DNA of 64,000 nucleotides from Burkholderiales bacterium. Its GTDB lineage: Bacteria; Pseudomonadota; Gammaproteobacteria; Burkholderiales; Burkholderiaceae_C. Both the position numbers and the translations under genes were made by a program. Below are positions 5,300 to 23,898 of the stretch, piece after piece. The stretch's first letter is position 1. Every line of letters starts with the position of its first letter. The notes beneath the pieces were generated by a model. That model worked only from the letters and a program-made list of their open reading frames with translations. It was not told the DNA's origin and searched no databases. The stretch covers positions 1 to 64,000 of the forward strand of contig JAGWTH010000016.1 of assembly GCA_028868995.1 (NCBI GenBank), read 5' to 3'.

Positions 5300-6639
5300 G
5301 CGAGCGCGGGATCATCGCACGACACGCCGGCACGGTGCTGGCGGGCCAGCTGGCCACGATGGCCTTCGGCATCACCGACACGGTGGTGGCCGGTCGCTAT
5401 TCGCAGCAGGCCCTGGCCGCGCTGTCGGTCGGTTCGGCGGTGTACATCACGGTCTTCGTCGCGCTGATGGGCGTGCTGCAGTCGCTGCTGCCGATCTGGG
5501 CGGAACTGCACGGGGCCGGACGCCGGCACGACGTCGGCCGCTCGGTGCGCCAGGCGCTGTACCTGGCCGCGCTGGCGGCCGTGGCGGGCGTGGCCGGGCT
5601 GCTGTTCCCTGGCGCGCTGCTGCAGCGCACCGAGGTGCCGGCCGCGCTGCAGCAGGACGTGCGGCAATACCTGGCCGTGCTGGCGCTGGCGCTGCCGCCC
5701 GCGCTGCTGTTCCGCATGTACAGCACGCTCAACCAGAGCCTGGGCAAGCCGCAGCTGGTCACCTGGCTGCAGCTCGCCTCGCTGGCGCTGAAGGTGCCGC
5801 TCACCGTCTGGTTCGCCTTCGGCGGCGCCGGCGTGCCGGCCCTGGGTGCCGTGGGCTGCGCCTGGGCCACCGTCGCCACCAACTGGCTGTTCGTCGCCGT
5901 CGCCTTGTGGCTGGTGCGCACGGACGCGCTCTACCGGCCCTATGCGCTCTGGCGCCCGCTGGAGCGCCCGCACTGGCACACCATCGCGCAGTTCGCGCGG
6001 CTCGGCGTCCCGGCCGGCCTGTCGGTCGTGGTGGAGGTCACGTCCTTCACCCTGATGTCCCTGTTCATCGCCCGCCAGGGCACCCTCTCGACCGCCGCGC
6101 ACCAGATCGCGGCCAACGTGACGGCGGTGATGTACATGGTGCCCCTGTCGATCGCCATCGCCACCAGCGCGCGGGTGAGCTTCTGGCTCGGCGCCGGCGA
6201 CGCGAGGAAGGCGCGTGCCGCCATCCGCACCGGCTTCCGCATGGGACTGTCGCTGGCGGTGGCGCTGGCCGTCAGCGTGCTGGCGGCGCGCGGGGGCATC
6301 GCCTCGCTCTATTCCGCCGACCCGCAGGTCGCGGCGGTGGCCGCCGGCCTGCTGGCCCTGGTGGCGGGCTACCACCTGGGCGACGCGGCCCAGGTGCTGT
6401 GCGTGTTCGTGCTGCGCTCCTACCGCGTCACGGTGGCGCCCTTCGTCGCCTACTGCGTGCTGCTGTGGGGCGTGGGGGTGGTGGGCGGCTACCAGCTCGC
6501 CTACCGGGGCGTCGGCCCGGTGGCGGCGCTGCAGAGCCCCGCCGCGTTCTGGACCGCGAGCAGTTTCGCCCTGGCCCTGCTGGCCGTCATCCTGCCGCTG
6601 ATTCTGTGGCGGGCCGTGCGGCGCCACCGGCTGGCGTAG
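5296..6639 (+). CDS. MATE family multidrug/metabolite efflux transporter
   Basis: A 447-residue inner-membrane antiporter with about 12 transmembrane helices. The N-terminal MATE signature is visible as ITDTVVAGRYS near residue 25, and the second half repeats the fold (FARLGVPAGLSVVVEVTSF, AAHQIAANV). MATE proteins export drugs or lipid-linked and phenolic compounds using proton or sodium gradients. The GTG at 5296 overlaps the stop of the preceding membrane protein (GTGA), indicating one transcript. Given that partner, export of an envelope intermediate is possible, but this is only inference. The 3' end overlaps convergent phoR by 53 nt. Confidence 0.9.
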   Translation: MSERGIIARHAGTVLAGQLATMAFGITDTVVAGRYSQQALAALSVGSAVYITVFVALMGVLQSLLPIWAELHGAGRRHDVGRSVRQALYLAALAAVAGVAGLLFPGALLQRTEVPAALQQDVRQYLAVLALALPPALLFRMYSTLNQSLGKPQLVTWLQLASLALKVPLTVWFAFGGAGVPALGAVGCAWATVATNWLFVAVALWLVRTDALYRPYALWRPLERPHWHTIAQFARLGVPAGLSVVVEVTSFTLMSLFIARQGTLSTAAHQIAANVTAVMYMVPLSIAIATSARVSFWLGAGDARKARAAIRTGFRMGLSLAVALAVSVLAARGGIASLYSADPQVAAVAAGLLALVAGYHLGDAAQVLCVFVLRSYRVTVAPFVAYCVLLWGVGVVGGYQLAYRGVGPVAALQSPAAFWTASSFALALLAVILPLILWRAVRRHRLA

Positions 6640-7948
6640 CGGCATCCAGCGGGCGGACGCGGGCCGCGGACAGGCAGATGGTGAAGATCGAGCCCACGCC
6701 CAGGCTGCTCTCGATCCTCAGTTCGCCGCCATGGCGCTGCACCACGTGCTTGACGATCGCCAGGCCCAGCCCGGTGCCCCCGGTCTCGCGCGAGCGGCTG
6801 CGGTCGACACGGTAGAAGCGCTCCGTCAGGCGCGGCAGGTGCTCCGGCGCGATGCCCGGACCGGTATCGCGCACCGACCACAAGGCGCGGCCGCCCTCCT
6901 CGCGCAGCTGCACTTCCACGACGCCGCCGGAGGGCGTGTAGCGCACCGCGTTGCTCACCAGGTTGGAGAAGGCGCTTTGCAGCTCGCTGGCCGCGCCCGC
7001 GAAGGCGAGCGGCGCCGGCGGGGGAAAGCGCAGGTCGAGCTTCTTGCCCAGCGCCGCCGCCAGCGCCCGCGCCTCCTGCTCGCACTGGCCGAAGAAGGTC
7101 GCGGCCGGCGTCCATTCGCCCGAACTGGGCGGCGGGCTGCCTTCCAGCCGCGACAGCGTGAGCAGGTCGCTCACCAGCGTCTGCATGCGCTGGGCCTGCT
7201 GCGCCATCATCTGCAGGTAGCGCGAGCGCTCGTCCTTCGGCAGGTCCAGGCTCTGCAGCGTCTCGACGAAACCGGCCAGCACGGTGAGCGGGGTGCGGAT
7301 CTCGTGCGAGACGTTGGCGACGAAGTCCCGCCGCATGACCTCGGCCTGCTCCACCGAGGTCACGTCGCGCGACAGCAGCAGCAGCCGGCCCTCGCCGTAC
7401 GAGTGCAGGTTCAGCGACAGCTTCCGGGGCCGCGCCGAGGTGCTTCCGGGCGCCGGCACCACCACGTCCTGGGTGCGGTTGCGGCCGTGGAAGAAGGCAG
7501 TGAAGTCGGGGTCGCGCAGCAGGTTGACGATGTGCTGCTGCAGGTCGCGCTCCGGATCCAGCCCCAGGTGCTCCGAGGCGGTCAGGTTGCACCACTCGAT
7601 GCGGCCCTGGGCGTCCAGCAGCACGACGCCGTTGGGCGAGGCCCGGATCGCGTCGAGGAAATCCTCCAGCCGCAGCTCGGCGTCGCGGGCCTGCCTCTCG
7701 CGCACGGCGAGCGCGCGCCGGATCCGGTCGGCGGCCTCGGCCCACAGCCCCATCAGCCTGGGCACGTCGCGCACGTCGGGGGCGCGCAGCCAGCGCAGCG
7801 TGCGCAGCGCCTGCGTCGTGTCGATCACGATCCAGGCCACCGCGCCGGCGCCCACGCCGAAGGCCGCACCGGCTTCGGTGTCGGCCCACCAGCCGAGGGC
7901 TGCGCCGCCCCCCACGCACAGGAGGAAGACGATCAGGCGCGTAGCCAC
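6587..7948 (-). CDS. phoR: Phosphate regulon sensor histidine kinase PhoR
   Basis: A 453-residue membrane sensor kinase. Two hydrophobic segments lie within the first 45 residues, followed by a PAS-like region (FLDAIRASPNGVVLLDAQGRI, about 97-117). The HisKA motif SHEIRTP has phospho-acceptor His215. The HATPase boxes are N (NLVSNAVRYTP), G1 (DTGPGIAPEH) and G2 (GGTGLGLAIVKH). With PstSCAB and PhoU it senses periplasmic phosphate supply and phosphorylates PhoB. It starts with GTG, 27 nt behind phoB, and is the last gene of the pst-pho run. The C-terminal tail beyond the kinase domain is Ala/Pro-rich and overlaps the MATE gene. Confidence 0.95.
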   Translation of the reverse strand: MATRLIVFLLCVGGGAALGWWADTEAGAAFGVGAGAVAWIVIDTTQALRTLRWLRAPDVRDVPRLMGLWAEAADRIRRALAVRERQARDAELRLEDFLDAIRASPNGVVLLDAQGRIEWCNLTASEHLGLDPERDLQQHIVNLLRDPDFTAFFHGRNRTQDVVVPAPGSTSARPRKLSLNLHSYGEGRLLLLSRDVTSVEQAEVMRRDFVANVSHEIRTPLTVLAGFVETLQSLDLPKDERSRYLQMMAQQAQRMQTLVSDLLTLSRLEGSPPPSSGEWTPAATFFGQCEQEARALAAALGKKLDLRFPPPAPLAFAGAASELQSAFSNLVSNAVRYTPSGGVVEVQLREEGGRALWSVRDTGPGIAPEHLPRLTERFYRVDRSRSRETGGTGLGLAIVKHVVQRHGGELRIESSLGVGSIFTICLSAARVRPLDAATPAGGAARPATESAAG

Positions 7949-7975
7949 TGGACGAGATCTCCCAGGACGGCCGGC

Positions 7976-8689
7976 TCAGGCGGCCTCGCGCGAGCCGCCC
8001 GCGGGCTGGGCGGTGATGCGGTAGCCGGCGCCGCGCACCGTCTCCACCAGCGCGCCGCCGGGGCCCAGGGCCTCGCGCAGCCGCTTGACGTGCACGTCCA
8101 CCGTGCGCTCCTCGATGAACACGTGGTCGCCCCAGACGCGGTCCAGCAGCTGCTGGCGGCTGTGCACGCGCTCCGGGTGCTTGATCAGGAAGTTCAGCAG
8201 CTTGAACTCCGTCGGCCCGATCTTGACCGGCCGGCCGTTCCACAGCACGCGGTGCGCCGCGGCGTCCAGCGTGATGCCGCCCAGGACCACCGTCTCCTCG
8301 GCCTTCTCCGGCGAGCGGCGGCGCAGCACCGCGCGGATGCGGGCCAGCAGCTCCTGGGTGGAGAAGGGCTTGGTGATGTAGTCGTCGGCCCCGGCATCCA
8401 GGCCCGAGACCTTGTCCGGCTCGTCGCCGCGGGCGGTGAGCATGAGGATGGGGACCCCCTTGGTGCGCGGGTCGGCGCGCCAGCGGCGCGCCAGCTGCAG
8501 GCCGCTGGCGCCCGGCAGCATCCAGTCCAGCAGGATGGCGTCCGGCAGCACCGCGTCGATCTCGCGCTGCGCCGAGTCACCGTCCTCCGACCAGACCGGC
8601 GACATGCCGTTGTGCCGCAGGTTGACCGCGATCAGCTCGGCGATCGCCGGCTCGTCCTCGACGATCAGGATGCGTGGCTGGTTCCTCAT
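7976..8689 (-). CDS. phoB: Phosphate regulon response regulator PhoB
   Basis: A 237-residue OmpR-family activator. The receiver domain (1-120) has the acidic pair Glu11/Asp12, phospho-acceptor Asp55 (LLDWMLPG) and the conserved Lys in YITKPF. The C-terminal winged helix (about 130-225) contains the recognition region EERTVDVHVKRLREALG. Phospho-PhoB binds Pho boxes, 11-bp direct repeats of TGTCA type, several of which occur in this window. ATG 8689 lies 8 nt behind phoU, so it is co-transcribed. Confidence 0.97.
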   Translation of the reverse strand: MRNQPRILIVEDEPAIAELIAVNLRHNGMSPVWSEDGDSAQREIDAVLPDAILLDWMLPGASGLQLARRWRADPRTKGVPILMLTARGDEPDKVSGLDAGADDYITKPFSTQELLARIRAVLRRRSPEKAEETVVLGGITLDAAAHRVLWNGRPVKIGPTEFKLLNFLIKHPERVHSRQQLLDRVWGDHVFIEERTVDVHVKRLREALGPGGALVETVRGAGYRITAQPAGGSREAA

Positions 8690-8697
8690 CCGCCTTC

Positions 8698-9402
8698 CTA
8701 CTTCAGTGCCGACTCGACGCTCTCGATCGGGCTGTGGCGCACGTCCGCGCCCTTGACGACGTAGATGATGAACTCGGCGATGTTCTTGGCGTGGTCGCCG
8801 ATGCGCTCGATCGCCTTGGCCACGAACAGCAGGTCCAGGCTGCTGGAGATGGTGCGGGCATCCTCCATCATGTAGGTGATCAGCTTGCGCACGAAGCCGT
8901 CGAACTCCTGGTCCAGGAGGTTGTCCTCCTTGAGGATCGCGACCGCGGCGGCCGTGTCCAGCCGGGCGAAGGCGTCCAGGGCCTTGCGCAGCTGGGCCGA
9001 GGCCAGGTCCGCCGCCACGCGCAGTTCGCCGGCCGGCAGGGTGCGCACCGAGCCGCTCTTGGCGATGATGGACTGCACCATGCGGGCGATCCGCTCGGCC
9101 TCGTCGCCCACGCGCTCCAGGTTGGCCGTGGTCTTGGAGATGGCCATCAGCAGGCGCAGGTCGCGTGCCGTGGGCTGGCGGCGCGCGATCACCGAGGACA
9201 GCTCCCGGTCGATCTCGACCTCCATCTGGTTCACGCGCGACTCGGTGTCGATCACGTGGCGCGCCGCGTCCTCGTTGAAGTGCTCGAGCGCGTACACGGC
9301 CTGCCGGATCTGGGACTCGGTCAGGCCACCGAGTTCCATGACGCGCGAGGACAGCGCGTTGAGCTCGCTGTCGAACTGGGTGGAAAGATGCTTGTCGGTC
9401 AT
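8698..9402 (-). CDS. phoU: Phosphate transport system regulator PhoU
   Basis: A 234-residue all-helical cytoplasmic protein with the duplicated PhoU three-helix domain (each half about 100 residues). Acidic metal-binding motifs are visible as ERVGDEAERIARM in the first half and ERIGDHAKNIAEF in the second. PhoU restrains PhoR and Pst activity when phosphate is ample, and its loss typically causes polyphosphate overload. It sits between pstB and phoB with gaps of about 10 nt. Confidence 0.97.
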   Translation of the reverse strand: MTDKHLSTQFDSELNALSSRVMELGGLTESQIRQAVYALEHFNEDAARHVIDTESRVNQMEVEIDRELSSVIARRQPTARDLRLLMAISKTTANLERVGDEAERIARMVQSIIAKSGSVRTLPAGELRVAADLASAQLRKALDAFARLDTAAAVAILKEDNLLDQEFDGFVRKLITYMMEDARTISSSLDLLFVAKAIERIGDHAKNIAEFIIYVVKGADVRHSPIESVESALK

Positions 9403-9412
9403 GGCGCCCCTT

Positions 9413-10195
9413 TCAGCCGAACCGGCCCGTGATGTAGTCCTCGGTCTCCTGCCGCTTGGGCTTGAAGAAGATCTGCTCGGTGTCGCCGAACTCGATCAGG
9501 TCGCCGAGGTACATGTAGGCGGTGTAGTCCGAGACCCGGGCCGCCTGCTGCATGTTATGGGTGACGATCACCACCGTGTAGTCGTTCTTCAGCTCGACGA
9601 TCAGCTCCTCGATCTTGCCGGTGGAGATCGGGTCCAGCGCGGAGCACGGCTCGTCGAGCAGCAGCACCTCGGGCTTGATCGCGATGCCGCGGGCGATGCA
9701 CAGCCGCTGCTGCTGGCCGCCGGAGAGACCGGAGCCGCTCTGGTTCAGCTTGCTCTTGACCTCGTCCCACAGGGCTGCCTTGCGCAGCGCCCACTCCACC
9801 CGGTCGTCCATGTCGGCGTCCGACATGGACTCGAACAGGCGCACGCCGAAGGCGATGTTGTCGTAGATCGACATCGGGAACGGGGTCGGCTTCTGGAACA
9901 CCATGCCGACCTTGGCCCGCAGCAGGGCCACGTCCTTCTTCGAGGTGAGCAGGTTCTCGCCGTCCAGCACGATCTCGCCCTCGGCGCGCTGGTCGGGGTA
10001 CAGCTCGTACATCCGGTTGAAGGTGCGCAGCAGGGTCGACTTGCCGCAGCCGGAAGGGCCGATGAAGGCCGTGACCTTCTTCTCCGGCACGTCCAGGTTG
10101 ATGTTCTTCAGCGCGTGGAAACGCCCGTAGTAGAAATTCAGGTTGCGCACGGCCAGCTTGGCGCGCACGCGTTCGGGGGCAAGGGTTGCGTCCAT
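9413..10195 (-). CDS. pstB: Phosphate ABC transporter ATP-binding protein PstB
   Basis: A 260-residue ABC ATPase that powers phosphate import through PstA and PstC. It shows Walker [10 protein letters not shown] near residue 46, the Q-loop [10 protein letters not shown] characteristic of PstB, the signature LSGGQQQR, Walker [13 protein letters not shown] and the switch His in VTHNMQQ. Full length. It begins 5 nt behind the pstA stop codon. Confidence 0.98.
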
Positions 10196-10199
10196 GGGT

Positions 10200-11087
10200 T
10201 CAGGTGCGGTTGCGCGTCAGCACGCGCGCCAGGACGTTCAGTCCCAGCACGGCCATCGTGATGATGAAGACGCCGGCCCAGGCAAGCTTCTGCCAGCTCT
10301 CGTAGGGGCTCATGGCGAACTTGAAGATCGTCACCGGCAGGGTCGCGATCGGTCCGGACAGGTCGGAGGAGAAGAACTGGTTGTTCAGGGCGGTGAACAG
10401 CAACGGCGCGGTCTCGCCGGCGATGCGCGCCACCGCCAGCAGCACGCCGGTGACGACGCCGGCGCGGGCCGCGCGCAGCGTGATGCGGGTGATGACCTTA
10501 CACTTGGGCGTCCCGAGCGCGTAGGCCGCCTCGCGCAGGCCGGCCGGCACCAGCAGCAGCATGTTCTCGGTGGTGCGGATCACGATCGGGATCACGATCA
10601 GGGCCAGCGCCACGATGCCGGCCCAGCCGGAGAACTGCTTGTAGCGCGCCACCACCACGCCGTAGACGAACAGGCCGATGACGATCGACGGGGCCGACAG
10701 CAGGATGTCGTTGACGAAGCGGGTGGTCGAGCCGAGCCAGCCCTTGGGGTCGTATTCGGCCAGGTAGATGCCGGCCATGATGCCGATCGGCGTGCCGACG
10801 AAGGTGGCCAGCGACACCAGCAGCGCCGAGCCCCAGATGGCGTTGAGCAGGCCGCCGGCCTCGTCCGGGGCGGGCGTGCTCTGGCTCAACGCGGTCCAGG
10901 TCAGGCCGCCGATCCCCAGGCGCAGCGTCTCCCACAGGATCCAGACCAGCCAGAACACGCCGAACACCATCGCCGCCAGCGACAGCGCCAGGGCGATGCG
11001 GTTGACGCGCTTGCGCGCGGCGTACTTGCGCTCGCGCTGCTGCGCGGAGTCGGCCGCGCGGATCAGGTCGTCGCCGGTGCCGCTCAT
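10200..11087 (-). CDS. pstA: Phosphate ABC transporter permease PstA
   Basis: A 295-residue inner-membrane permease with six predicted helices. The first is near residue 35 after a charged N-terminus ([18 protein letters not shown]). The cytoplasmic EAA loop is visible as [19 protein letters not shown]. It partners PstC to form the phosphate channel. I chose the ATG at 11087, which overlaps pstC by 4 nt (ATGA); upstream reading in this frame is not PstA-like. Confidence 0.97.
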
Positions 11088-12121
11088 GAACGGGTCCCCT
11101 CGTTGCGGCGCAGGCGCATCAGCAGCAGCTTGGACAGCGCGAGCACCACGAAAGTGATGAAGAACAGGACCAGGCCCAGGTAGATCAGGGAGGCCGCGTG
11201 CAGCCCGGACTGGGCCTCGGCGAACTCGTTGGCCAGGGCCGAGGTGATGCTGTTGGCGGGCTGGAACAGGCTGATCGAGTCCAGCTGGTTGAAGTTGCCG
11301 ATGACGAAGGTCACCGCCATGGTCTCGCCCAGGGCGCGCCCCAGGCCGAGCATGATGCCGCCGATGACGCCGGTCTTGGTGTAGGGCAGCACGACGCGCA
11401 GCACCACCTCCCAGGTCGTCGAGCCCAGCCCGTAGGCCGACTCCTTGAGCATGGGCGGGGTGACCTCGAACACGTCGCGCATGACGGCGGCGATGAAGGG
11501 AATGATCATGATCGCCAGGATGATCCCGGCGGACAGCAGGCCGATGCCCACCGGCGGCCCCGAGAACAGCGCGCCCAGCACGGGCACGCCCGAGAAGAGC
11601 GCCTGCAGCGGCTGCTGCACGTAGGTGGCCAGGATGGGCCCGAACACCATGAGCCCCCACATGCCGTAGACGATCGAGGGCACGGCCGCCAGCAGCTCGA
11701 TGGCGATGCCCAGCGGCCGCTTGAGCCAGGCCGGGGACAGCTCGGTGAGGAACAGCGCGATGCCGAAGCTGACCGGCACGGCGATCAGCAGGGCGATCAG
11801 CGAGGTGGCCAGCGTGCCGTAGATCATCACGACCCCGCCGAACTTCTCGCTCACCGGGTCCCACACGGTGGACGTGAAGAAGCCCAGCCCGAACTTCTCG
11901 ATGGCCGGCCGGGCGCCGATGAACAGCGACACCAGGATGCCCAGCAGCAGGGCGAGCGTCAGCAGCGCCGCCGCCCGGGCGGTCCAGCCGAAGACGCGGT
12001 CGATCAGGGCGCCGGTGCGCGCCCGCCCGGCGGGCGGGGGCGCGCTCACGGCCTGGCGGCGCCCGGACAGCGCCGAAGGTTCAGGAAGCTTGGCCTCATC
12101 GGCCGGGAGTGTAGAGGACAC
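11084..12121 (-). CDS. pstC: Phosphate ABC transporter permease PstC
   Basis: A 345-residue permease with six core helices plus an N-terminal segment ([19 protein letters not shown]). The EAA loop reads [20 protein letters not shown] place the start at GTG 12121 ([11 protein letters not shown]): a GTG at 12178 would also be in frame, but translation from there would have to begin inside the pstS-pstC stem-loop, and the extra residues are unlike PstC. It lies 70 nt behind pstS, the only sizeable gap in this operon. Confidence 0.93.
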
Positions 12122-12146
12122 GGGATCAGCCCTGCAGGAATGGAAA

Positions 12147-12167
12147 GCCGGGGCACTGGGCCCCGGC
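12147..12167 (-). terminator. Intercistronic stem-loop between pstS and pstC
   Basis: An 8-bp perfect GC stem (12147-12154 with 12160-12167, 5-nt loop) sits between the pstS stop and the pstC start. On the minus strand it is followed by TTTCCATT, a weak T run. Partial termination or 3'-end protection here would give more PstS than permease, as is known for binding-protein genes in other ABC operons. Confidence 0.6.
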
Positions 12168-12191
12168 GGTTCTTTCACTGCGTCGCGCAGC

Positions 12192-13232
12192 TTACTTGTA
12201 GGCGATGGCCTTGCCGGCGGCGTCCTTGATCGAGGAGGACCATTCCTTCTCGATCTGGGCCTTCACGGCGGCGGGCATCGGCACGTAGTCGAGCTCGTCG
12301 GCGGCCTTGTCGCCGTCCTTGAACGCGTACTCGAAGAACTTCAGCACCGCGGCGCCCTGGGCCGGCTTGTCCTGCACCTTGTGCATCAGCACGAAGGTCG
12401 AACCGGTGATGGGCCAGGAATCGGCGCCCGGCTGGTTGGTCAGGATCTGGTAGAAGCTCTTGGACCAGTCGGCGCCGGCGGCGGCGGCCTTGAAGGCCTT
12501 CTCGTCGGGCGTCACGAACTTGCCGGTGCTGTTGGCCATCAGCGCGTAGTGCATCTTGTTCTGCTTGACGTAGGCGTACTCGACGTAGCCGATCGAGTTG
12601 GGCAGGCGGCTCACGAAGGTGGCCACGCCCTCGTTGCCCTTGCCGCCGGCGCCGCCGACCCAGTTCACCGTGGTGCCGTCACCGATCTTGGTCTTCCACT
12701 CGGGGCTGACCTTGGACAGGTAGTTGGTGAAGATGAAGGTGGTGCCGGAGCCGTCCGCGCGGTGCACGGTGGAGATGGCCGCGTCGGGCAGGTTCAGGCC
12801 GGGGTTCAGGGCCTTGATCGCCGCGTCGTTCCACTTGGTGATCTTGCCCAGGTAGATGTCGGCCAGCAGCTGGCCGTTGAGCTTGAGCTGGCCGGGGCCG
12901 ACGCCTTGCACGTTGGTGACCGGGATCACGCCGCCGATCAGGATCGGGAACTGGATCTGGCCCTTCTTCTCCAGGACGTCGTCGGTCAGCGGCATGTCGG
13001 AGGCGCCGAAATCGACCGTCTTGGCATCGATCTGCTTGATGCCGGCGCCGGAGCCCACGGACTGGTAGTTGATGCGGGCGCCGGTGGCCTTGTTGTAGGC
13101 GGCGGCCCACTTGGCGATCAGCGGCTGTGCGAAGGACGAGCCGGCGCCCGTCACATCCTCGGCCGAGGCGGCCGCGGAGAAAGCCAGCGCGGCCAGGCCG
13201 ACGGCAGCCACGGAAATCTTGAAGTTGTTCAT
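12192..13232 (-). CDS. pstS: Phosphate-binding periplasmic protein PstS
   Basis: A 346-residue high-affinity phosphate receptor. It has a Sec signal peptide with cleavage expected after AAASA (about residue 24, mature start [13 protein letters not shown]). The phosphate-binding loops are visible: [17 protein letters not shown] with FGASDMPL, and [15 protein letters not shown] 13232 is preceded by AGAGGA. It is first gene of pstSCAB-phoU-phoBR, with a Pho box and -10 directly upstream, so strong induction in phosphate limitation is expected. Confidence 0.97.
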
Positions 13233-13302: not shown

Positions 13303-13344
13303 ATGTCAAAACCCCGCCCGCCCCCCCCGGTCCGGGCCCGGCGC

Positions 13345-13469: not shown

Positions 13470-14599
13470 ATGCCCTCCATCCTCCTGAGCCGGCGCGCCC
13501 TCGTCGCCGGCGCCGCGGCCGTTGCCCTGCCCGCCCTCGCCCTCGCCCAGTCCCGCGGCGTGGCCCGGTCGCCAGCCGTCGTCCAGATCTTCGACAGCTC
13601 CGCCCGCGAGCAGGACGTCTCCAAGGACTTCCTGATCGGTTCGCGCGCCGCCTGGCAGGACATCAACGCGCGCGGCGGCCTGGGTGGCCGGCCGGTGGAG
13701 CACATCGAACTGGCGGTGGACGGCAGCCCGGCGAGCGTGCGCGACGCCTGGCAGGCCGCCCGCGACAACCCGGCCTGCGTGGTGCTGTCGGGCACCGTCA
13801 GCGACCCGGTGGCCACCGAGCTGGCCGGCCTGCTGCGCCATGAGGGAACCGCCATCGCCCACGCGGCCCCCTGGCTGCAGAACTCCGCCGTGGAGCTGGA
13901 CGACCGGACCTTCGCCATCTTCGCCGGCCGCCAGGAGCAGATCGCCCACGCGCTGAAGTCGCTCACCGTCGGCGGCGTGCAGGAGGTCGGCGCCGTGTTC
14001 GCCTCCGAGCGCGAGGCCGGCGCCTATCGCCAGGACGTGGTCCGGGCGGCGGCGCAGGCCGGCCTGAAGCTGGCGACCTGGACCGGCGCCGGCAACCTCG
14101 GCCAGCTGGGCCAGCGGTTCGGCCCCTCGACGCCGGCCCTGCTGCTGTTCGTCGGCGGCACCCCCGAGCTGGTCCAGTTCACCCAGGGACTGGATCGCCA
14201 GGCGCGCCAGCGCTATGTCATCGCGCTGGCGGACGTCAACCTGCAGACCGTGCAGCAGTTTTGGGCGGTGCCCGCGTGACCCCGATCATCGCCACCCAGG
14301 CCGTGCCCCTGCCCACCTCGCCGCTGCCGGTCGTGCGCCGCTACCGGGAGGTGCTGGCCCGCCTGTTCGACGAGCCGCCCGCGGCGCTGAGCCTGGCCGG
14401 CTTCATCGCCGCGCGCTACACCTTCGAGGTCCTCGCCGGCATCGAGGGCCCGGTCACCCGGGCCTCGGCGCTCGCCGCCTTCCAGCGCCGCCAGGACCTC
14501 GACGTCGGCGGCTACCGCGTCAATTTCCAGGGACAGCGCCGCAGTGCCTCCTTCGTCACGCAATCGATGCTCACGCCCGACGGCCGCGTCGTCGGCTGA
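13470..14599 (+). pseudogene. Periplasmic ABC-type (Leu/Ile/Val-family) substrate-binding protein, frameshifted
   Basis: The first frame (13470-14279, 269 codons) begins with a twin-arginine/Sec-like signal (SRRALVAGAAAVALPALALA) and a periplasmic type I binding-protein fold (VVQIFDSSAREQDVSKDFL), then stops after NLQTVQQFWAVPA. The expected continuation, LGGARVTPIIATQAVPLP through FEVLAGIEGPVTRASALAAF to DGRVVG, is found at once in another frame (14261-14599). One extra T in the TTTT run at 14259-14262 would join them into one protein of about 376 residues, the normal family length. Alternatives are a sequencing error, a real null mutation, or two coupled genes using GTG 14276 (GTGA overlap). 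Tandem Pho boxes lie upstream. The ligand is unknown. Confidence 0.7.
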
Positions 14600-14669
14600 A
14601 GCGCTGCTGGAGCGCGCGCCGCGTCGCGCGGCCGGTGCTATGCTGGCCGCCGTCCCCCTCCGCCCCCGC

Positions 14670-16154
14670 ATGCCCTCCGGTACCCTGCTCGCCGCCGTCG
14701 ACCTCGGCTCCAACAGCTATCGCCTGGAGATCGGCCGCCTCGAGCATGGCCAGGTCCAGCGCGTCGAATACCTGAAGGAGACCGTGCGCCAGGGCAACGG
14801 CCTGGACGAGGCACGCAACCTGACCCGGGAGGCCATGGAGCGCGGCTGGGCCTGCCTGGCGCGCTTCGCCGAGCGGCTGGCCGGCTTCCAGCCGGCCCAG
14901 GTGCGCGCCGTGGCCACGCAGACGCTGCGCGAGGCGCGCAACCGCGACGTCTTCCTCGCGCACGCCCACGAGATCCTGGGCTTCCCCATCGACGTGATCT
15001 CCGGGCGCGAGGAGGCGCGGCTGATCTACCAGGGCGTCGCCCACCTGCTGCCCGATTCCGAGGAGCGGCGGCTGGTCGTCGATATCGGCGGCCGCTCGAC
15101 CGAGCTGATCCTGGGCCACCGCATGCAGCCCCAGGTCATGGAGAGCTACCGCGTGGGCAGCGTCGCCTGGTCCATGCGCTACTTCCCCGACGGCCAGTTC
15201 ACCCACGCCGCCTTCGAGCGCGCCGAGATCGCGGCGCAGGCGGTGCTGGACGAGGCGCTCACCCTCTATTCGCCCGCCAGCTGGGATGTCGCCTACGGCT
15301 CCTCGGGCACGATCGGGGCGGTGGCCGACGTGCTGGGCGCCTGCGGCTACCCGCCGGGCGAGGTGAGCCGCGAGGGCCTGGACTGGCTGGTCAAGCAGCT
15401 GGTGCAGGCCCGCAGCGCCGAGCGCGTGCGCCTGCCCGCGCTGAAGGAGGACCGCCGGCCGGTGATCGGCGGCGGCGTCAGCGTGCTGCGCGCCGTGTTC
15501 TCGCTGCTGCAGGTGGAGCGCATGCACGCCGCCGACGGCGCGCTCCGGCACGGGGTGCTGTTCGACATGCTGGACCGGCGCGACGCGGCCACCGACGTGC
15601 GCACCCGCACCGTGCAGCGGCTGGCCACGCAGTTCGGCGCCGACCCGACGCAGGCGCAGCGGGTGGCCCGAGTGGCGCGCCATTTCCTGCGCCAGCTGCG
15701 CCCTCAGGACGCCGCGCCGGAGCTGCTGCGACTGGAGCGCAAGCTGGAATGGGCCGCCCACCTGCACGAGATCGGCAGCCTGATCTCCCACAGCGACTAC
15801 CACAAGCACGGCGCCTACATCCTGGACAACACGGACGCGGCGGGCTTCTCCCAGCACGAGCTGCACCGACTCAGCCTGCTGGTGCTGGGCCACCGCGGCA
15901 AGCTGCGCAAGCTGGAGGCCGACTTCGACGACGCCGTGCTGGTGCAGCAGCTGCTGTGCCTGCGGCTGGCCGTGATCCTGTGCCACGCGCGCCGCGACCC
16001 CGAGCTGCGCGGCCTGCGCCTGGCCAACGGCGGCCCCGAGTTTCGCATGGAAGTCCCGCCGGCCTGGTCGCAGAACTATCCGCAGTCGGCCCACCTGCTG
16101 CGCGAGGAGACGGCGGCCTGGCAGAAGACGCCCTGGAGCTTCGTCGTGGCCTGA
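14670..16154 (+). CDS. ppx: Exopolyphosphatase (Ppx/GppA family)
   Basis: A 494-residue sugar-kinase/Hsp70-fold phosphatase that removes phosphate from the ends of polyphosphate. Phosphate loop 1 reads AAVDLGSNSYRLEIGR (about 7-22), loop 2 reads VVDIGGRSTELILG and the ATPase-fold Gly-rich segment reads YGSSGTIGAV. The C-terminal HD-like helical domain contains HLHEIG and YHKHG. The ATG at 14670 (MPSGTLLAAVDLG) fits the family; an in-frame ATG at 14640 is possible. It lies plus-strand in the phosphate island, opposite the ppk1 operon, and no Pho box is seen directly upstream. Confidence 0.95.
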   Translation: MPSGTLLAAVDLGSNSYRLEIGRLEHGQVQRVEYLKETVRQGNGLDEARNLTREAMERGWACLARFAERLAGFQPAQVRAVATQTLREARNRDVFLAHAHEILGFPIDVISGREEARLIYQGVAHLLPDSEERRLVVDIGGRSTELILGHRMQPQVMESYRVGSVAWSMRYFPDGQFTHAAFERAEIAAQAVLDEALTLYSPASWDVAYGSSGTIGAVADVLGACGYPPGEVSREGLDWLVKQLVQARSAERVRLPALKEDRRPVIGGGVSVLRAVFSLLQVERMHAADGALRHGVLFDMLDRRDAATDVRTRTVQRLATQFGADPTQAQRVARVARHFLRQLRPQDAAPELLRLERKLEWAAHLHEIGSLISHSDYHKHGAYILDNTDAAGFSQHELHRLSLLVLGHRGKLRKLEADFDDAVLVQQLLCLRLAVILCHARRDPELRGLRLANGGPEFRMEVPPAWSQNYPQSAHLLREETAAWQKTPWSFVVA

Positions 16155-16229: not shown

Positions 16230-16625
16230 ATGCCCGCAGTGAAGAAGGTGGCCGCCCGGGCCGCCACCCGCAAGAAGACCCCCGCCCGTGCGGCCGCCAA
16301 GGCCGCCGCGCCGGCGCCGAAACCCGCTGCCGCCGCCCCGGCGCAGAAGGCGCCCAAGGCCGACAAGGCCCCCAAGGCGGAGAAGTCCGAGAAGCCGAAG
16401 AAGCCGAAGCTGGTGCGCGACAGCTTCACCATCCCCAAGAACGAATACACCGCGCTGGAAGACCTCAAGCTGCGCGCGGCGAAGCTGGGCCGGCCGGCCA
16501 AGAAGAGCGAGATCCTGCGCGCCGGTGTCATGGCGCTGGCCGCCATGGGCGACGCCGCCTTCCTGTCCAGTGTCGGCGCCGTTCCGGCCGTGAAGACCGG
16601 CCGTCCCGCGAAGTCGGATTCCTAG
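16230..16625 (+). CDS. Histone H1-like basic protein with C-terminal ribbon-helix-helix-like domain
   Basis: 131 residues in two parts. Residues 1-65 are almost only Lys, Ala and Pro (repeats of the KKTPARAAAK and APKAEKSEKPKKPK kind), as in bacterial H1/AlgP-like DNA-coating tails. Residues 66-131 (KLVRDSFTIPKNEYTALEDL, then AKKSEILRAGVMALAAM) look like a short ribbon-helix-helix DNA-binding unit that I recall from Burkholderiales proteins of unknown role. It probably binds DNA or polyphosphate through its lysines; neither is shown. There is a good GGAGAG ribosome site. Convergent with sixA, overlapping by 4 nt. Confidence 0.75.
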   Translation: MPAVKKVAARAATRKKTPARAAAKAAAPAPKPAAAAPAQKAPKADKAPKAEKSEKPKKPKLVRDSFTIPKNEYTALEDLKLRAAKLGRPAKKSEILRAGVMALAAMGDAAFLSSVGAVPAVKTGRPAKSDS

Positions 16626-17083
16626 ACCGTCTCGGGCGACTGCACGGCCCAGAGGAGCGTCTGTTCGTGGCCGTCGCGCTCGCGCGTGCGCAGCCACCAC
16701 ACCGCGCCCTTGCGGATCGCGCAGTTGCCGTCCGGCATGCGCAGCAGCCGGGCGATCGTCTCGCCCAGCGCCGGCTGGTGGCCCACCACCAGCACCGGGT
16801 GGCGCGCGCCGGGCCACTGCACGGCCTCCAGCAGCCCCTCGGGGCGGGTGCCGGGCGCCAGCTCGTCGCGCAGCTTGAACTTGCGGCCCAGGGCCAGCGC
16901 CGTCTGCTGGCAGCGCAGCGCCGGGCTGCACAGGACGCGGGTGCCATCCGGCAGGTGGCGGTCCAGCCAGGCCCCCATCCGCGCGGCCTGCTTCTCGCCC
17001 CGGGACGTGAGCGGCCGGTCGACGTCGGCCAGGCCCTCGCCCGGGTCCTCGGCTTCGGCGTGGCGCCAGAAGATCAGGTCCAT
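16622..17083 (-). CDS. sixA: Phosphohistidine phosphatase SixA-like
   Basis: A 153-residue histidine phosphatase (phosphoglycerate-mutase-like fold). The catalytic RHG-type motif appears as WRHAEAED (residues 6-13), later Arg in SPALRCQQTA, and the second catalytic His in VVGHQPALGETI. SixA removes phosphate from phosphohistidines such as those of phosphorelay or PTS proteins. The ATG at 17083 has a strong GAGGAGGTG site and overlaps the end of ppk1 by 10 nt, so it is translated from the ppk1 message. The pairing suggests a link to phosphate status, but the target protein is unknown. Confidence 0.88.
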   Translation of the reverse strand: MDLIFWRHAEAEDPGEGLADVDRPLTSRGEKQAARMGAWLDRHLPDGTRVLCSPALRCQQTALALGRKFKLRDELAPGTRPEGLLEAVQWPGARHPVLVVGHQPALGETIARLLRMPDGNCAIRKGAVWWLRTRERDGHEQTLLWAVQSPETV

Positions 17084-19180: not shown

Positions 19181-19229
19181 ATGACGGGACCGTGACAGTG
19201 TGCCGTTGATCTATGACAGATGCGTGACG
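19181..19229 (-). promoter_or_regulatory. Two Pho-box-like sites upstream of ppk1
   Basis: On the minus strand, CGTCAC and TGTCAT (19224-19229 and 19213-19218) are 11 bp apart. Nearer the gene, TGTCAC and CGTCAT (19192-19197 and 19181-19186) are also 11 bp apart. Ten bases after the first pair is CACACT (19197-19202), a weak -10. The outer box lies over the last codons of agt. The inner box is too close to the start codon to act as a classical activator site. Confidence 0.6.
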
Positions 19230-20293
19230 GCCGCCGGGGTGCCCCCGGGCGCCGCCCGGTCGCGCGCGGGCACCAGGTAGCTCGCGAACAGCTGGGCGGC
19301 CCGGGCCCAGCTGAAGTCCAGGGCCCGCCGCCGCGCCTCGTGGCGCGGCACCGCCAGGGCGGCGAAGCAGGCCTGCTGCAGGTCCTCGTGCATGGCGCCG
19401 CCCAGGGCGCCCGCGCCGTCCTCGCGCCGGCGGGCCAGCACGGTGAGCGGACCGTCGACCGGATAGGCCGCGACCGGGGTGCCGCAGGCCAGGGCCTCGG
19501 CCATCACCAGCCCGAAGGTGTCGGCCCGGCTGGGGAACACGAACAGGTCGGCCGCCGCGTAGAGTTTCGCCAGCTCCGGCCGCGGCAGCAGGCCCACCCA
19601 GCGCACGTGCGGATACTTGCGCTTGAGCTGCTCCTCCACCGGGCCCACGCCGCAGACCACCTTGGTGCCGGGCAGGTCCGTGCGCAGGAAGGCCTCGATG
19701 TTCTTCTCGTAGGACACCCGGCCCACGAACAGCGAAAGCGGCCGTCGCGCGTCCTCCAGGCCCGGGAACAGGCCCGCGTCGGGGCGGAAGGAGAACAGGT
19801 CGGTGTCGACGCCGTGCGTCCATTCGCGCAGGTTGGCGAAGCCGCGGCCGCGCAGCATCTCCAGCACGCTGGGCGTGGGCACCATGACGCCGGAGGACGG
19901 CGCATGGAAGTGCCGCATCACCGCGTAGCCGAGCCGCAGCGGCACCTTGACTGCCGCGTTCACGATCTCCGGGAACTTGGTGTGGAAGGCGGTCGTGAAG
20001 GCGAGCCCCCGCCGCAGGCAGTAGCGCCTGGCCGCCCAGCCGAGGGGGCCTTCGGTGGCCAGGTGGATCGCATCGGGCTGGAAGGCATCCAGCTTCTCGC
20101 CCAGCTCCCGGGCCGGCGCGACCGCGAGGTCGATGCCCGGATAGCCCGGGCAGGGCCGCGTGCGGAACTGGCCCGGCTCGATCACCTGCACCTGGTGCCC
20201 CGCCGCGCGCAGCTCGCGCCCGAGTTCCACCAGGGTGGTGACGACGCCGTTGACCTGGGGCAGCCAGGCATCCGTGACCAGGGAAATCTTCAT
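19211..20293 (-). CDS. agt: GT4 glycosyltransferase, Agt-like (diacylglycerol glycosyltransferase candidate)
   Basis: A 360-residue GT-B enzyme. The N-terminal half opens MKISLVTDAWLPQVNGVVTT and contains PDAIHLATEGPLG and FHTKFPE. The C-terminal half has VGRVSYEKNI, the GT4 catalytic E-x7-E block FPSRADTFGLVMAEALACG and VAAYPVDGP. This is the pattern of the family annotated as glycolipid synthase Agt, which in phosphate-starved bacteria glycosylates the diacylglycerol made by PlcP. The ATG at 20293 overlaps plcP by 4 nt, as in known plcP-agt pairs. Sugar donor (UDP-glucose or UDP-glucuronate) cannot be told. The general label is glycosyltransferase family 4. Confidence 0.88.
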   Translation of the reverse strand: MKISLVTDAWLPQVNGVVTTLVELGRELRAAGHQVQVIEPGQFRTRPCPGYPGIDLAVAPARELGEKLDAFQPDAIHLATEGPLGWAARRYCLRRGLAFTTAFHTKFPEIVNAAVKVPLRLGYAVMRHFHAPSSGVMVPTPSVLEMLRGRGFANLREWTHGVDTDLFSFRPDAGLFPGLEDARRPLSLFVGRVSYEKNIEAFLRTDLPGTKVVCGVGPVEEQLKRKYPHVRWVGLLPRPELAKLYAAADLFVFPSRADTFGLVMAEALACGTPVAAYPVDGPLTVLARRREDGAGALGGAMHEDLQQACFAALAVPRHEARRRALDFSWARAAQLFASYLVPARDRAAPGGTPAAVTHLS

Positions 20294-21162
20294 GCCATCT
20301 CCGTGAGGGTCGCGTGGGCGACGGCGGTCACCTGGCCGCGCGCCTGCCACGCCAGCAGTTCCAGCCGGCCGTCGAAGTGCTCGACCAGCGCCGTGCGGCT
20401 TTCCACCCAGTCGCCGTCGTTGCAGTACAGCACGCCGGCGATGCGGCGCATCTCGGCACGGTGGATGTGCCCGCAGACCACGCCCTGGTGGCCGCGCCGG
20501 CGGGCCTCGTGGGCGACCGCGGCCTCGAAGTCCATCACGTAGTTCAGCGCCTTCTTGACCTTGTGCTTCAGGTAGGCCGACAGCGACCAGTACGGCAGGC
20601 CCAGGCGGGCCCGCAGCGAATTGAGGTGCCGGTTCATGCGCAGCGTGAACTCGTACAGGGTGTCGCCCAGGTGGGCCAGCCACTTCGCGCACTGGACCAC
20701 GCCGTCGAAATGGTCGCCGTGCACGACCCACAGCCGCTGGCCGGTGGCCGTGACGTGCACCGCTTCCTGCGTCACCTCGATGCCGCCGAAATGGTGGCCG
20801 GCGAACTGGCGGGCGAACTCGTCGTGGTTGCCGGGCACGAAGACGACGCGGCAGCCCTTGCGCGCGCGGCGCAGCAGCTTCTGCACGACGTCGTTGTGGG
20901 CCTGCGGCCAGTACCAGCGCTTGCGCAGCTGCCAGCCGTCGATGATGTCGCCCACCAGGTACAGGTGCTCGCTCGGGTGCGACTTGAGGAAGTCCAGCAG
21001 CGGGCCGGCCTGGCAGCCCGGGGTCCCCAGGTGCAGGTCGGAGATGAAGATGCTGCGCACGCGCCGGCCCGGCGGCCCGTCGTCGCGTTCGTCGCGCTCG
21101 TCGACCGGGGGGACAGGAAAGCCTGCGACCAGGGAACCGAGGGCGTCGAACGTGGTGCGCAT
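20290..21162 (-). CDS. plcP: PlcP-like phospholipase C (annotated in relatives as UDP-2,3-diacylglucosamine diphosphatase)
   Basis: A 290-residue calcineurin-like metallophosphoesterase. Metal-binding motifs are all present: SDLHLG, GDIIDGW, PGNHDEF, HGDHFD and GHIH. The segments RKRWYWPQAHNDVVQKLLR and YWSLSAYLKHKVKKALNYV fit, from memory, the PlcP branch (Sinorhizobium SMc00171 and marine homologues), which splits phosphatidylcholine or phosphatidylethanolamine to diacylglycerol in phosphate starvation, rather than true LpxH. The agt gene next door supports this. It overlaps olsB by 1 nt (TGATG) and agt by 4 nt. Many databases label such proteins LpxH-like, so that name may appear. Confidence 0.85.
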   Translation of the reverse strand: MRTTFDALGSLVAGFPVPPVDERDERDDGPPGRRVRSIFISDLHLGTPGCQAGPLLDFLKSHPSEHLYLVGDIIDGWQLRKRWYWPQAHNDVVQKLLRRARKGCRVVFVPGNHDEFARQFAGHHFGGIEVTQEAVHVTATGQRLWVVHGDHFDGVVQCAKWLAHLGDTLYEFTLRMNRHLNSLRARLGLPYWSLSAYLKHKVKKALNYVMDFEAAVAHEARRRGHQGVVCGHIHRAEMRRIAGVLYCNDGDWVESRTALVEHFDGRLELLAWQARGQVTAVAHATLTEMA

Positions 21163-21971
21163 CAGGCCCCCAGGAAGTGCTTGCGGTAGCGCGGCGGCAG
21201 GTCCGGGATGCGCATCATCATGGGCAGGTCCGCGCTGTTGAAGTCCGGGTCCCACGCCGGCGGGCCCAGCACCTTGGCGCCCAGGCGCAGGTAGCCCCTG
21301 ATCAGCGGCGGCGGCTCCACCGGCAGCCCGCCGTCCAGGTGCTCCACCGGCAGGGGCAGGCGCGGCACCACCTGGTGCTGGATCGGCGCGAGGTGGGTGC
21401 GCTTCAACTGGTTCCAGATGCTGGCGGCGACGTCGCCGCTGGCCACGCCGTTGTGCATCATGGGGATGCTGGCGCAGCCGATCATGGTGTCCAGGCCGTT
21501 GCGCTGCATGAACTCCGCCAGCGCGCCCCACAGGGCCATGATCACGCCGCCCTGGCGCCAGTCGGCGTGCACGCAGCTGCGCCCCAGCTCCACCATCTGC
21601 TCGCGCAGGCCGCGCAGGCGCCACAGGTCGAACTCGGTGTCGCTGTAAAAGCTGCCCACGCGCCGCGCCTGGGCCGGCGTGAGCACGCGGTAGGTGCCGA
21701 TGACTTCCTGCGTCCGCGCCTCGCGCACGAGCAGGTGTTCGCAGTAGTCGTCGAACAGGTCGACGTCGTGCCCCGGGACCGGGGTGGCCAGCCGCGCGCC
21801 CATCTCGCCGGCGAAGATCTCGTGCCGCAGCCGCTGGGCGGCCCGCACCTCGTCGGCATGGCGTGCCCAGGCGACGGTGATGCCGCCGGCCTCGTCCGCC
21901 GGACCCGGCGCTGCGGGTCGCGGCACGGCGAGGGTCGAAACGGATTGCGTGCGGTTCGGCAGCTCGGTCAT
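21162..21971 (-). CDS. olsB: OlsB-like N-acyltransferase (GNAT/autoinducer-synthase fold)
   Basis: A 269-residue acyltransferase. The core contains LRHEIFAGEMGARL (about residue 50), IGTYRVL, and VELGRSCVHADWRQGGVIMA, which is the family's Glu-Gly-Arg-Ser-Cys-Val-His acyl-ACP motif. OlsB transfers a 3-hydroxyacyl chain to ornithine, making lyso-ornithine lipid; OlsA, the O-acyltransferase that completes the lipid, is not in this window. I start at ATG 21971 (MTELPNRTQ), which has AGGAG six nt before it; longer starts up to 22013 would run into the Pho box. First gene of olsB-plcP-agt-ppk1-sixA. Substrate amino acid not proven. Confidence 0.8.
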   Translation of the reverse strand: MTELPNRTQSVSTLAVPRPAAPGPADEAGGITVAWARHADEVRAAQRLRHEIFAGEMGARLATPVPGHDVDLFDDYCEHLLVREARTQEVIGTYRVLTPAQARRVGSFYSDTEFDLWRLRGLREQMVELGRSCVHADWRQGGVIMALWGALAEFMQRNGLDTMIGCASIPMMHNGVASGDVAASIWNQLKRTHLAPIQHQVVPRLPLPVEHLDGGLPVEPPPLIRGYLRLGAKVLGPPAWDPDFNSADLPMMMRIPDLPPRYRKHFLGA

Positions 21972-21995
21972 GCGGGGCTCCTGCGGCATGGAGGC

Positions 21996-22050
21996 AGTGT
22001 CGTGCTCATGCATGACGCCCTCGTGGCGTTTGCATGGCAGTTCGATGACG
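21996..22050 (-). promoter_or_regulatory. Tandem Pho-box promoter of the olsB-plcP-agt operon
   Basis: Reading on the minus strand, CGTCAT (22045-22050), TGCCAT (22034-22039), CGCCAC (22023-22028) and CGTCAT (22012-22017) are spaced exactly 11 bp apart. Ten bases later is GACACT (21996-22001), a -10-like hexamer, 24 nt before the ATG at 21971. Each half-site differs from TGTCAT at one to three positions, but phase and spacer match those of pstS. Confidence 0.7.
22033..22050. repeat. 18-bp inverted repeat, left copy
   Basis: The minus strand here reads CGTCATCGAACTGCCATG, identical to the plus strand at 23866-23883. The two copies bracket the hydrolase and M14 peptidase genes as an inverted pair. 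Both copies are part of Pho-box-like promoters, but identity extends through the five-base spacer, which PhoB binding does not require. Confidence 0.8.
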
Positions 22051-22075
22051 GCCCCGGGGGCCCATCACGAAGCGG

Positions 22076-22834
22076 TCACGCGCCGGGGAAGCCGCGCAGC
22101 ACCCAGTCGACGGCCTGCTGCACGACCCAGTCCGGGTCGTCCAGGGGCAGGTCGTGGCCGGCCGAGGGATGCAGGTTCAGCGGCAGGCTCCAGGCCCGCG
22201 CGATCGCTTCCGAGGCCCTCGGCGACACCAGCCGGTCCTGCGCGGAAGCGAGCACCAGGGCCGGCACCGGCAGCCGCGCCGGGGCCCGGTAGCGCGCGGC
22301 GGCGAACAGCTGCCGGGCCAGGTTGCGGCGCGCAACCGGCCGGCTGCGCGCGAAGGCGACCCAGTCGTCCACCACCGCGTCGTGCAGCGGCAGGTTGCTG
22401 GTGACGCGGTAGACCGCCCTCTCCCGGTCCAGGTCCCCGGCGCGCGGTTGCAGCCAGGGGGCCAGCTGCAGCCACGCGCCCGGACGCAGGCGCTGCCAGA
22501 ACGGCGACAGGCGTCCCGCGCTGCTGTTCACGAGGATGCAGCCCTGGAGTTCGCCGGGGAAGCGGGCGGCCCACTCCATGGCCACCATGCCTCCCAGCGA
22601 CAGAGCGAGCACGACGTAGGGACCGGGCCGCGACCGCGCGCGCAGCTCGGCGCGCACCGCCTCCACCATGCCGGCGACGTTCGCCGGGCTCGCCTGCTGC
22701 CACCAGCGGCCGCTGCCGGGCAGGTCGACGGTCAGGACGCGCTCGCCGGGCAGCCGCTCCTCCAGCAGCGGCGGCAGCCGGCCCCAGTGGCGCGCCTCGC
22801 GCCCCAGTCCGCGCAGCAGGATCCAGGTCGTCAT
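22076..22834 (-). CDS. Alpha/beta hydrolase
   Basis: A 252-residue cytoplasmic alpha/beta hydrolase. Nucleophile elbow: ALSLGGM (Ser near residue 79). The oxyanion region is near LLRGLGREARHW, and the late catalytic His lies in SAGHDLPLDDP. The acid is probably Asp in SAQDRLVS. Substrate unknown; esterase or lipase-type activity is the usual for this fold. ATG 22834 overlaps the M14 gene by 4 nt (ATGA), so both come from one transcript. Confidence 0.85.
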   Translation of the reverse strand: MTTWILLRGLGREARHWGRLPPLLEERLPGERVLTVDLPGSGRWWQQASPANVAGMVEAVRAELRARSRPGPYVVLALSLGGMVAMEWAARFPGELQGCILVNSSAGRLSPFWQRLRPGAWLQLAPWLQPRAGDLDRERAVYRVTSNLPLHDAVVDDWVAFARSRPVARRNLARQLFAAARYRAPARLPVPALVLASAQDRLVSPRASEAIARAWSLPLNLHPSAGHDLPLDDPDWVVQQAVDWVLRGFPGA

Positions 22835-23871: not shown

Positions 23872-23898
23872 CGAACTGCCATGCCGCGGCGCTACCGT
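23866..23898 (+). promoter_or_regulatory. Pho-box-like promoter before the 44-residue membrane peptide
   Basis: CGTCAT (23866) and TGCCAT (23877) are 11 bp apart on the plus strand. Exactly ten bases later is TACCGT (23893-23898), a -10-like hexamer, and an ATG follows at 23909. The first 18 bases (23866-23883) are the right copy of the inverted repeat. Confidence 0.5.

Follow-up and report, generated by a model that had tools for sequence, protein, structure and literature searches.

In the published work available to us, membrane phospholipids are reported to be replaced under phosphate (Pi) starvation in alphaproteobacteria, marine bacteria, pseudomonads, methanotrophs, and Streptomyces. 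Here we analyze a 64,000-nt stretch of a Burkholderiales bacterium (the window; contig JAGWTH010000016.1 of assembly GCA_028868995.1) from a genome of 3.76 Mb, in which genes resembling olsB, plcP, and agt are followed by ppk1 and sixA. As far as the available passages describe it, Pseudomonas aeruginosa PA3219-PA3218 is similar in having plcP, then agt, with a Pho box in front (PMC8528852), whereas olsBA is a separate operon in that species (PMC9804370); here, olsB heads plcP-agt and ppk1 follows. Among the six types of marine plcP neighborhoods (PMC4796936), type 2 is alike in having agt downstream of plcP and putative Pho boxes, but the passages on these neighborhoods name neither olsB nor ppk1. 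The closest studied OlsB type is that of Streptomyces coelicolor SCO0921-SCO0920, which is cited as induced by Pi limitation and has olsA beside olsB, with no mention of plcP in the passages available (PMC4686642); in contrast, there is no olsA in the present cluster. Ppk is said to be generally induced when Pi is scarce, and the corresponding passages on phosphate-controlled ppk do not mention lipid genes as neighbors (PMC4415409), unlike the situation here. Passages on methanotrophs describe plcP-agt and, separately, OlsB/A. Judged from titles, the openings of abstracts, and the passages available, none of the open-access papers listed deals with an operon that joins olsB and plcP or with lipid genes beside ppk1.

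We consider it likely that olsB-plcP-agt and ppk1-sixA are neighbors coregulated by PhoB that combine lipid replacement with polyphosphate storage. This explanation is drawn from the gene families, the gene overlaps, both Pho regions with their conserved -10 positions, conservation, and synteny. The parts and their individual phosphate control are known, and they stand here in a recurrent arrangement that is apparently undescribed. An earlier, sequence-only reading of the window had called the joining of these genes "not a described arrangement"; the open-access papers listed do not contradict this, but such arrangements recur in the family, so that this organism is not a special case. The cluster is made up of the following parts.

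22051-16622, minus strand: whole cluster, consisting of a Pho-box array, olsB-like gene, plcP, agt, a second Pho-box region, ppk1, and sixA
21162..21971, minus strand: olsB-like N-acyltransferase gene, 269 amino acids from the likely start at 21971 (the open reading frame reaches 22013)
20290..21162, minus strand: plcP-like phospholipase C gene, 290 amino acids
19211..20293, minus strand: agt-like GT4 glycosyltransferase gene, Agt1 type, 360 amino acids
17074..19164, minus strand: ppk1, polyphosphate kinase 1, 696 amino acids (TIGR03705, 860.6 bits; cut-off, 465.85)
16622..17083, minus strand: sixA-like histidine phosphatase gene (TIGR00249, 67.6 bits, slightly below the cut-off of 74.5)

The overlaps previously noticed among the three lipid genes were confirmed, with 1 nt shared by olsB and plcP (both at 21162) and 4 nt by plcP and agt (20290/20293). 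The agt stop at 19211 and the ppk1 ATG at 19164 leave a gap of 46 nt, and the 3′ end of ppk1 overlaps sixA. The start formerly assigned to olsB, 22013, is probably not the right one. The gene more likely begins at the ATG at 21971, because AGGAG lies 6 nt before this codon, the starts of relatives align there, and 22013 sits within the last Pho half-site.

Predicted identities of the lipid enzymes

The window PlcP is 56.3 to 57.5% identical to P. aeruginosa PlcP (L103) and 53% identical to Sinorhizobium meliloti PlcP (L092), while its identity to Escherichia coli LpxH is 28% over only 126 amino acids and the LpxH model scores 42 bits against a cut-off of 190. L103 and L092 were taken as the characterized proteins because their mutual identity of 46.6% matches the 46% given for PA3219 and S. 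meliloti PlcP in the available part of the published description (PMC8528852); the L103 gene lies directly before a GT4 gene. The sequence-only reading had proposed phylogenetic placement among PlcP and LpxH as a check, and the resulting tree, in which branches are long and the bootstrap is not fully settled, groups the window protein with the characterized PlcPs and splits off LpxH with support of 100/100. The motifs of metallophosphoesterases are DLH, GDxxD, GNHD, HGD, and GHIH. All five are present in the window PlcP in the alignment, and the two LpxH sequences included carry GNRD and GHTH where PlcP has GNHD and GHIH. Together, the comparisons point to a phosphoesterase of the PlcP type, not LpxH, with a predicted hydrolysis of phospholipids to diacylglycerol. 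The LpxH identity was rejected on the basis of the tree, the low LpxH score, and the presence of a separate true LpxH elsewhere in the genome (contig C23, 207 bits). A search of solved structures with PlcP yielded no match; the same kind of search returned distant GT4 enzymes for the glycosyltransferase and an autoinducer synthase at an E value of 0.01 for OlsB.

The glycosyltransferase shares 50% identity with Agt1 of P. aeruginosa and 34% with Agt2, contains the Pfam domains Glyco_transf_4 and Glycos_transf_1, and is placed on the Agt1 side in the tree, with support of only 83/94. The identity to Agt1, the GT4 domains, and this grouping bear out the earlier assignment to the Agt type. Agt1 of P. 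aeruginosa forms monoglucosyldiacylglycerol (MGDG) from UDP-glucose, according to the available passages (PMC8528852). Because the window enzyme is of the Agt1 type, its sugar is most likely glucose, which would give MGDG. A lipopolysaccharide (LPS) enzyme was rejected as far as the single LPS outgroup, the distant E. coli WaaG, allows.

As a separate observation, a second GT4 gene that is 31 to 35% identical to the window glycosyltransferase occurs at 11 loci (L018, L020, L038, L043, L047, L056, L058, L062, L072, L077, and L080), 9 of which have no agt beside plcP. Seven of these second enzymes were compared; they share 45 to 54% identity with Agt2 of P. aeruginosa, which is of the glucuronate type, and they cluster with it. 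The P. aeruginosa plcP-agt1 (L103) and agt2 (L207) sequences come from records labeled as plasmids in PLSDB, which are perhaps chromosomal pieces or large plasmids.

The OlsB-like protein matches PF13444 with 115.6 bits and is the sole match to this domain in the genome at an E value of 0.001. Its identity is 50% to a Streptomyces homolog (L097), 47.5% to a Kitasatospora homolog (L096), and 31% to S. meliloti OlsB (L099), and a plasmid-borne Variovorax homolog also lies in the range of 47.5 to 50%. In S. coelicolor, mutation and complementation show that olsB is needed for ornithine lipid, as stated in the passages available (PMC4686642). The earlier OlsB assignment holds insofar as the nearest studied relatives are OlsB proteins; on the other side, the protein is divergent, scores below curated cut-offs, and has no OlsA gene in its cluster. 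An OlsA-type acyltransferase gene is located directly upstream of olsB in two relatives (L003, 78-1001; L014, 6227-7042) and divergently beside it in a third (L067, 6257-7000), with NCBIfam OlsA scores of 113 to 122 bits at a cut-off of 300. The genome under study has its own OlsA candidate on contig C52, unlinked to the cluster and beside a gene that resembles dihydroorotase by eye. The OlsB type of the family is nearer to actinobacterial than to alphaproteobacterial OlsB, in a tree whose deep forks are weak; this likeness may point to an old transfer.

Pho boxes and predicted transcription units

Pho boxes were scored with hand-set weights around CTGTCAT-N4-CTGTCAT, for which the maximum with two half-sites is 18. 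The cluster contains two Pho regions.

22012..22051, minus strand: olsB Pho box with four half-sites in exact 11-bp phase, CCGTCAT-N4-CTGCCAT-N4-ACGCCAC-N4-GCGTCAT
21996..22001, minus strand: -10-like hexamer GACACT of olsB, 10 nt after the last half-site
19213..19230, minus strand: ppk1 Pho box 1, CCGTCAC GCAT CTGTCAT, score 17.3, overlapping the agt 3′ end and stop
19197..19202, minus strand: -10-like hexamer CACACT of ppk1, 10 nt after box 1
19181..19198, minus strand: ppk1 Pho box 2, CTGTCAC GGTC CCGTCAT, score 17.3

The four phased half-sites and the -10-like hexamer noticed earlier before olsB are both there, and the box array with its conserved +10 hexamer supports the predicted PhoB-type promoter. 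Its score of 28.5 makes the array the second best with four half-sites on both strands of the window. Among pairs of half-sites in the window, the two ppk1 boxes score 17.3 each, followed by olsB (16.3) and pstS (16.1). The region between agt and ppk1 (19230-19181, minus strand) was absent from the sequence-only listing. A strict pattern, YTGTCAYNNNNYYGTCAY, has a single match in the 3.76-Mb genome, at ppk1 box 2, and a control pattern has none; this pattern was written after the site had been seen, so the single match is no independent ranking, and it misses ppk1 box 1, the olsB box, and the pstS box. Scans of the sequence for sigma-70 promoters and for intrinsic terminators gave no hit of either kind, which leaves the Pho boxes and the +10 hexamer as the basis of the promoter claim.

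Conservation was assessed in the best 80 of 504 confirmed relatives, mostly from one family, with 240-nt upstream regions and a box threshold of 13 at spacing 11 that was chosen after earlier results had been seen. A box is present in 40 of the 51 ppk1 regions (mean of 1.6 in shuffles) and in 33 of the 61 olsB regions (mean of 1.05 in 20 shuffles); agt and sixA have one in 1/40 and 1/46 regions, respectively, where the agt set omits loci whose match overlaps plcP, the window included, and the tblastn query for sixA began one codon before its ATG. At the other spacings of 8 to 10 and 12 to 14, boxes reach at most 12/51 for ppk1 and 5/61 for olsB, and at spacing 22, two repeats on, the counts are 18/51 and 34/61, as expected from arrays. 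The hexamer pattern.A...T stands at exactly +10 after the last half-site in 29/39 ppk1 and 25/33 olsB box regions, while no other offset between 4 and 19 gives more than 10 and 4, respectively. When olsB immediately precedes plcP, no box lies in the 220 nt upstream of plcP (0/61 loci), against 7/18 loci where it does not (7/80 in a mixed set that takes both kinds together). This contrast holds only close to the gene.

A second sample consisted of 120 family genomes from 115 genera, drawn evenly and at least 95% complete, in which boxes were counted in regions of 470 nt and similar lengths. Where olsB stands directly before ppk1, a box is found in 16/19 of the gaps between them and in 13/19 of the olsB upstream regions. 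In genomes with other gene orders, meaning those that fit none of three neighbor rules, boxes occur at ppk1 in 16/20, at olsB in 15/20, and at plcP in 10/20; each set holds 20 of 22 genomes (ppk1 without G081 and G113, olsB without G081 and G086, plcP without G047 and G081). These genomes are not all free of linkage. In G009, G060, G091, and G108, plcP and olsB are found less than 4 kb apart, with a different order or strand; in G027, G090, and G097, the distance between olsB and ppk1 is about 3.1 kb or less; and in G047 and G086, plcP lies 2.7 to 3.5 kb before ppk1. Leaving out the last five genomes gives a ppk1 count of 12/15. A ppk1 box is also present in 10 of 13 genomes with neither olsB nor plcP beside ppk1, a set made up of 11 of the 12 genomes that lack both genes (G072 left out) and two with olsB elsewhere (G004 and G117). 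Shuffle means for the family-genome sets are 0.2 to 0.95, and the reverse strand gives 1 to 3 boxes per set.

The genes probably form two adjacent PhoB units, olsB-plcP-agt and ppk1-sixA, because ppk1 in most relatives has its own box regardless of the genes beside it and plcP behind olsB lacks a nearby one throughout the 61 loci. The operon olsB-plcP-agt of the sequence-only reading is thereby retained as a prediction supported by the overlaps and the Pho box before olsB. Its single transcript as the main link to ppk1 is not, since ppk1 has its own conserved Pho promoter that overlaps the agt stop.

Recurrence, proposed mechanism, and alternatives

In the 120 family genomes, plcP is found in 88 and olsB in 99 (E value, 1e-40), and ppk1 is found in 112 at the cut-off used. 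The order olsB, plcP, ppk1 occurs in 25 genomes, olsB before ppk1 without plcP between them in 19, plcP before ppk1 without olsB in front in 15, olsB before plcP without ppk1 behind in 9, and other states in 52. In 59 of the 112 genomes that have ppk1, this gene is preceded on the same strand by olsB at a distance of up to 600 nt or by plcP at up to 2.5 kb. Among named loci with enough sequence, olsB precedes plcP in 60/78, agt directly follows plcP in 47/78, ppk1 lies within 2.5 kb after plcP in 47/69, and all three hold in 34/67. The best-matching named relative is Ramlibacter pallidus, which makes the organism probably a Ramlibacter or one of its close neighbors.

In the proposed mechanism, the binding of PhoB, the ends of the transcripts, the sugar and the amino acid used, the identity of the OlsA partner, and the fate of released phosphate are predictions. 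Under phosphate starvation, phosphorylated PhoB would bind the array before olsB and turn on olsB-plcP-agt. PlcP would strip the phosphorylated head group from membrane phospholipids to leave diacylglycerol, which Agt would glycosylate, most likely with glucose, to MGDG. The OlsB-type enzyme would produce a lyso-aminolipid, most likely that of ornithine lipid, and an unlinked OlsA-type acyltransferase, for which the C52 gene is the candidate, would complete it. The second Pho promoter, at the agt end, would switch on ppk1-sixA simultaneously, and phosphate taken up or set free could then be stored as polyphosphate via ppk1. The genes predict phosphate-starvation lipid replacement for a large betaproteobacterial family, and for many of its members two kinds of phosphorus-free lipid from one operon beside polyphosphate synthesis, so that phosphate saved from the membrane and phosphate stored as polyphosphate would be under common control. 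We further suggest, only tentatively, that the two processes form one PhoB-controlled phosphorus-economy module in the family, in which phospholipid replacement would provide the phosphate banked by PPK1, either directly or by lowering the demand on uptake. Lipid exchange and polyphosphate would then be functionally linked and under selection to remain together, with olsB, plcP-agt, and ppk1 as interchangeable parts.

Several observations weigh against coregulated lipid replacement and polyphosphate storage. All enzyme assignments rest on similarity, and the OlsB-like protein scores 145.1 bits against an NCBIfam OlsB cut-off of 350 (NF052554) and 135.3 against another of 320; the Kitasatospora homolog is likewise below them (142.7 and 136.2), while S. 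meliloti OlsB passes one at 511.5. The C52 OlsA candidate reaches 151 bits against the cut-off of 300 (the OlsA neighbor in Kitasatospora, 93.9) and has no same-strand Pho box scoring at least 12 within the upstream 1.3 kb. No box at the threshold is found in 28/61 olsB and 11/51 ppk1 regions of the named relatives, the reverse-strand control is not empty (9/61 and 2/51, respectively, and 6/19 in the olsB-ppk1 gaps of the family genomes), and ppk1 yields 12/51 at spacing 12 and 10/51 at spacing 14. Once the regions are lengthened to 470 nt and so take in part of the olsB coding sequence, the plcP contrast weakens to 12/60 versus 7/18, and plcP is without a box in 10/20 genomes of other orders. 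A genome of the same genus (G078) has no olsB or plcP match, and its ppk1 is present with its Pho box. Finally, no terminator-like site was found, so transcription from the olsB promoter may also extend into ppk1.

This last point is shared with the version of the sequence-only reading, in which a single PhoB-driven transcript, olsB-plcP-agt-ppk1-sixA, couples lipid replacement to polyphosphate synthesis. The common strand, the short agt-ppk1 gap, and the failure to find a terminator-like site would suit it, but the ppk1 boxes and -10-like hexamer overlap the end of agt, most relatives with a different gene order retain the ppk1 box, and the genes inside the proposed operon are nearly devoid of boxes (plcP directly behind olsB and agt, see above), which leaves this version distinctly unlikely. 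Far less credible still is a reading in which the phosphoesterase would be another LpxH and the glycosyltransferase a polysaccharide or LPS enzyme, both serving envelope biogenesis without a phosphate link. Database records do annotate such proteins as UDP-2,3-diacylglucosamine diphosphatase; however, the short, low-identity alignment and the low score to LpxH, the true LpxH on another contig, the closeness of the glycosyltransferase to Agt1 with WaaG distant, and the Pho boxes all speak against this.

A different product of the OlsB-type enzyme, either a lipid from another amino acid such as glutamine or a signaling N-acyl amino acid, appears unlikely, though less so. Its divergence from alphaproteobacterial OlsB, its scores below the curated cut-offs, and the lack of OlsA in the cluster would be in keeping with such a product, and marine Rhodobacteraceae are reported to have a glutamine-lipid pathway (PMC6298996). 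On the other hand, the closest of the studied families is actinobacterial OlsB, for which genetic work in S. coelicolor makes the connection to ornithine lipid. Two relatives carry an OlsA-type gene immediately upstream of olsB, and the genome has an OlsA candidate of its own. The neighborhood may also be a passive leftover of an ancestral pst-phoBR-ppk1 Pho region, with no selection for the lipid genes, and we take this as a serious possibility, if short of probable: pst-phoBR lies about 9 kb away, and many family genomes have other gene orders. Against a passive leftover stands the recurrence of three neighbor states (25, 19, and 15 of 120), which may point to repeated assembly or retention. 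Coregulation of the two units by PhoB remains the explanation that we favor for the locus as a whole.

Neighboring genes in the window

Three further features of the window concern phosphate metabolism.

14592..16154 (start approximate), plus strand: ppx-like gene (exopolyphosphatase), named by eye only
6587..13232, minus strand: pstSCAB-phoU-phoB-phoR, with pst subunits named from domain type and order and the pstS start near 13232
13302-13285, minus strand: pstS Pho box with TACATT 10 nt on, in the same layout as at olsB and ppk1

The ppx-like gene is a convergent neighbor outside the operon, and a convergent homolog at 45% identity or more is present in 43/80 relatives. Of 68 matches in the genome, the window PhoB alone exceeds the PhoB cut-off (325.5 bits versus 296.2). 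The best array with four half-sites in the window (29.5) lies at 13344-13383 on the plus strand, between pstS and the broken periplasmic-binding-protein-like gene at 13470-14599 (see below), which may be Pho controlled as judged from this array. A site scoring 16.0 at 23865-23882 (plus strand) has no clear gene to serve. Two genes were left out as operon members, abh (22076-22864) with a tblastn match in only 4/80 relatives and an M14 peptidase gene with a match in only 8/80; both stand directly before olsB in L004 only.

CHAD is a polyphosphate-binding domain, and a CYTH-CHAD protein is encoded near the cluster at 24225-25682 (plus strand). A periplasmic-binding-protein-like gene (Peripla_BP_6, 36 bits) is broken by a frameshift near 14261-14279 (13470-14279 and 14261-14599, both on the plus strand); it is either a pseudogene or an assembly error, and both pieces match in one frame in six relatives (L001, L002, L007, L008, L024, and L027).

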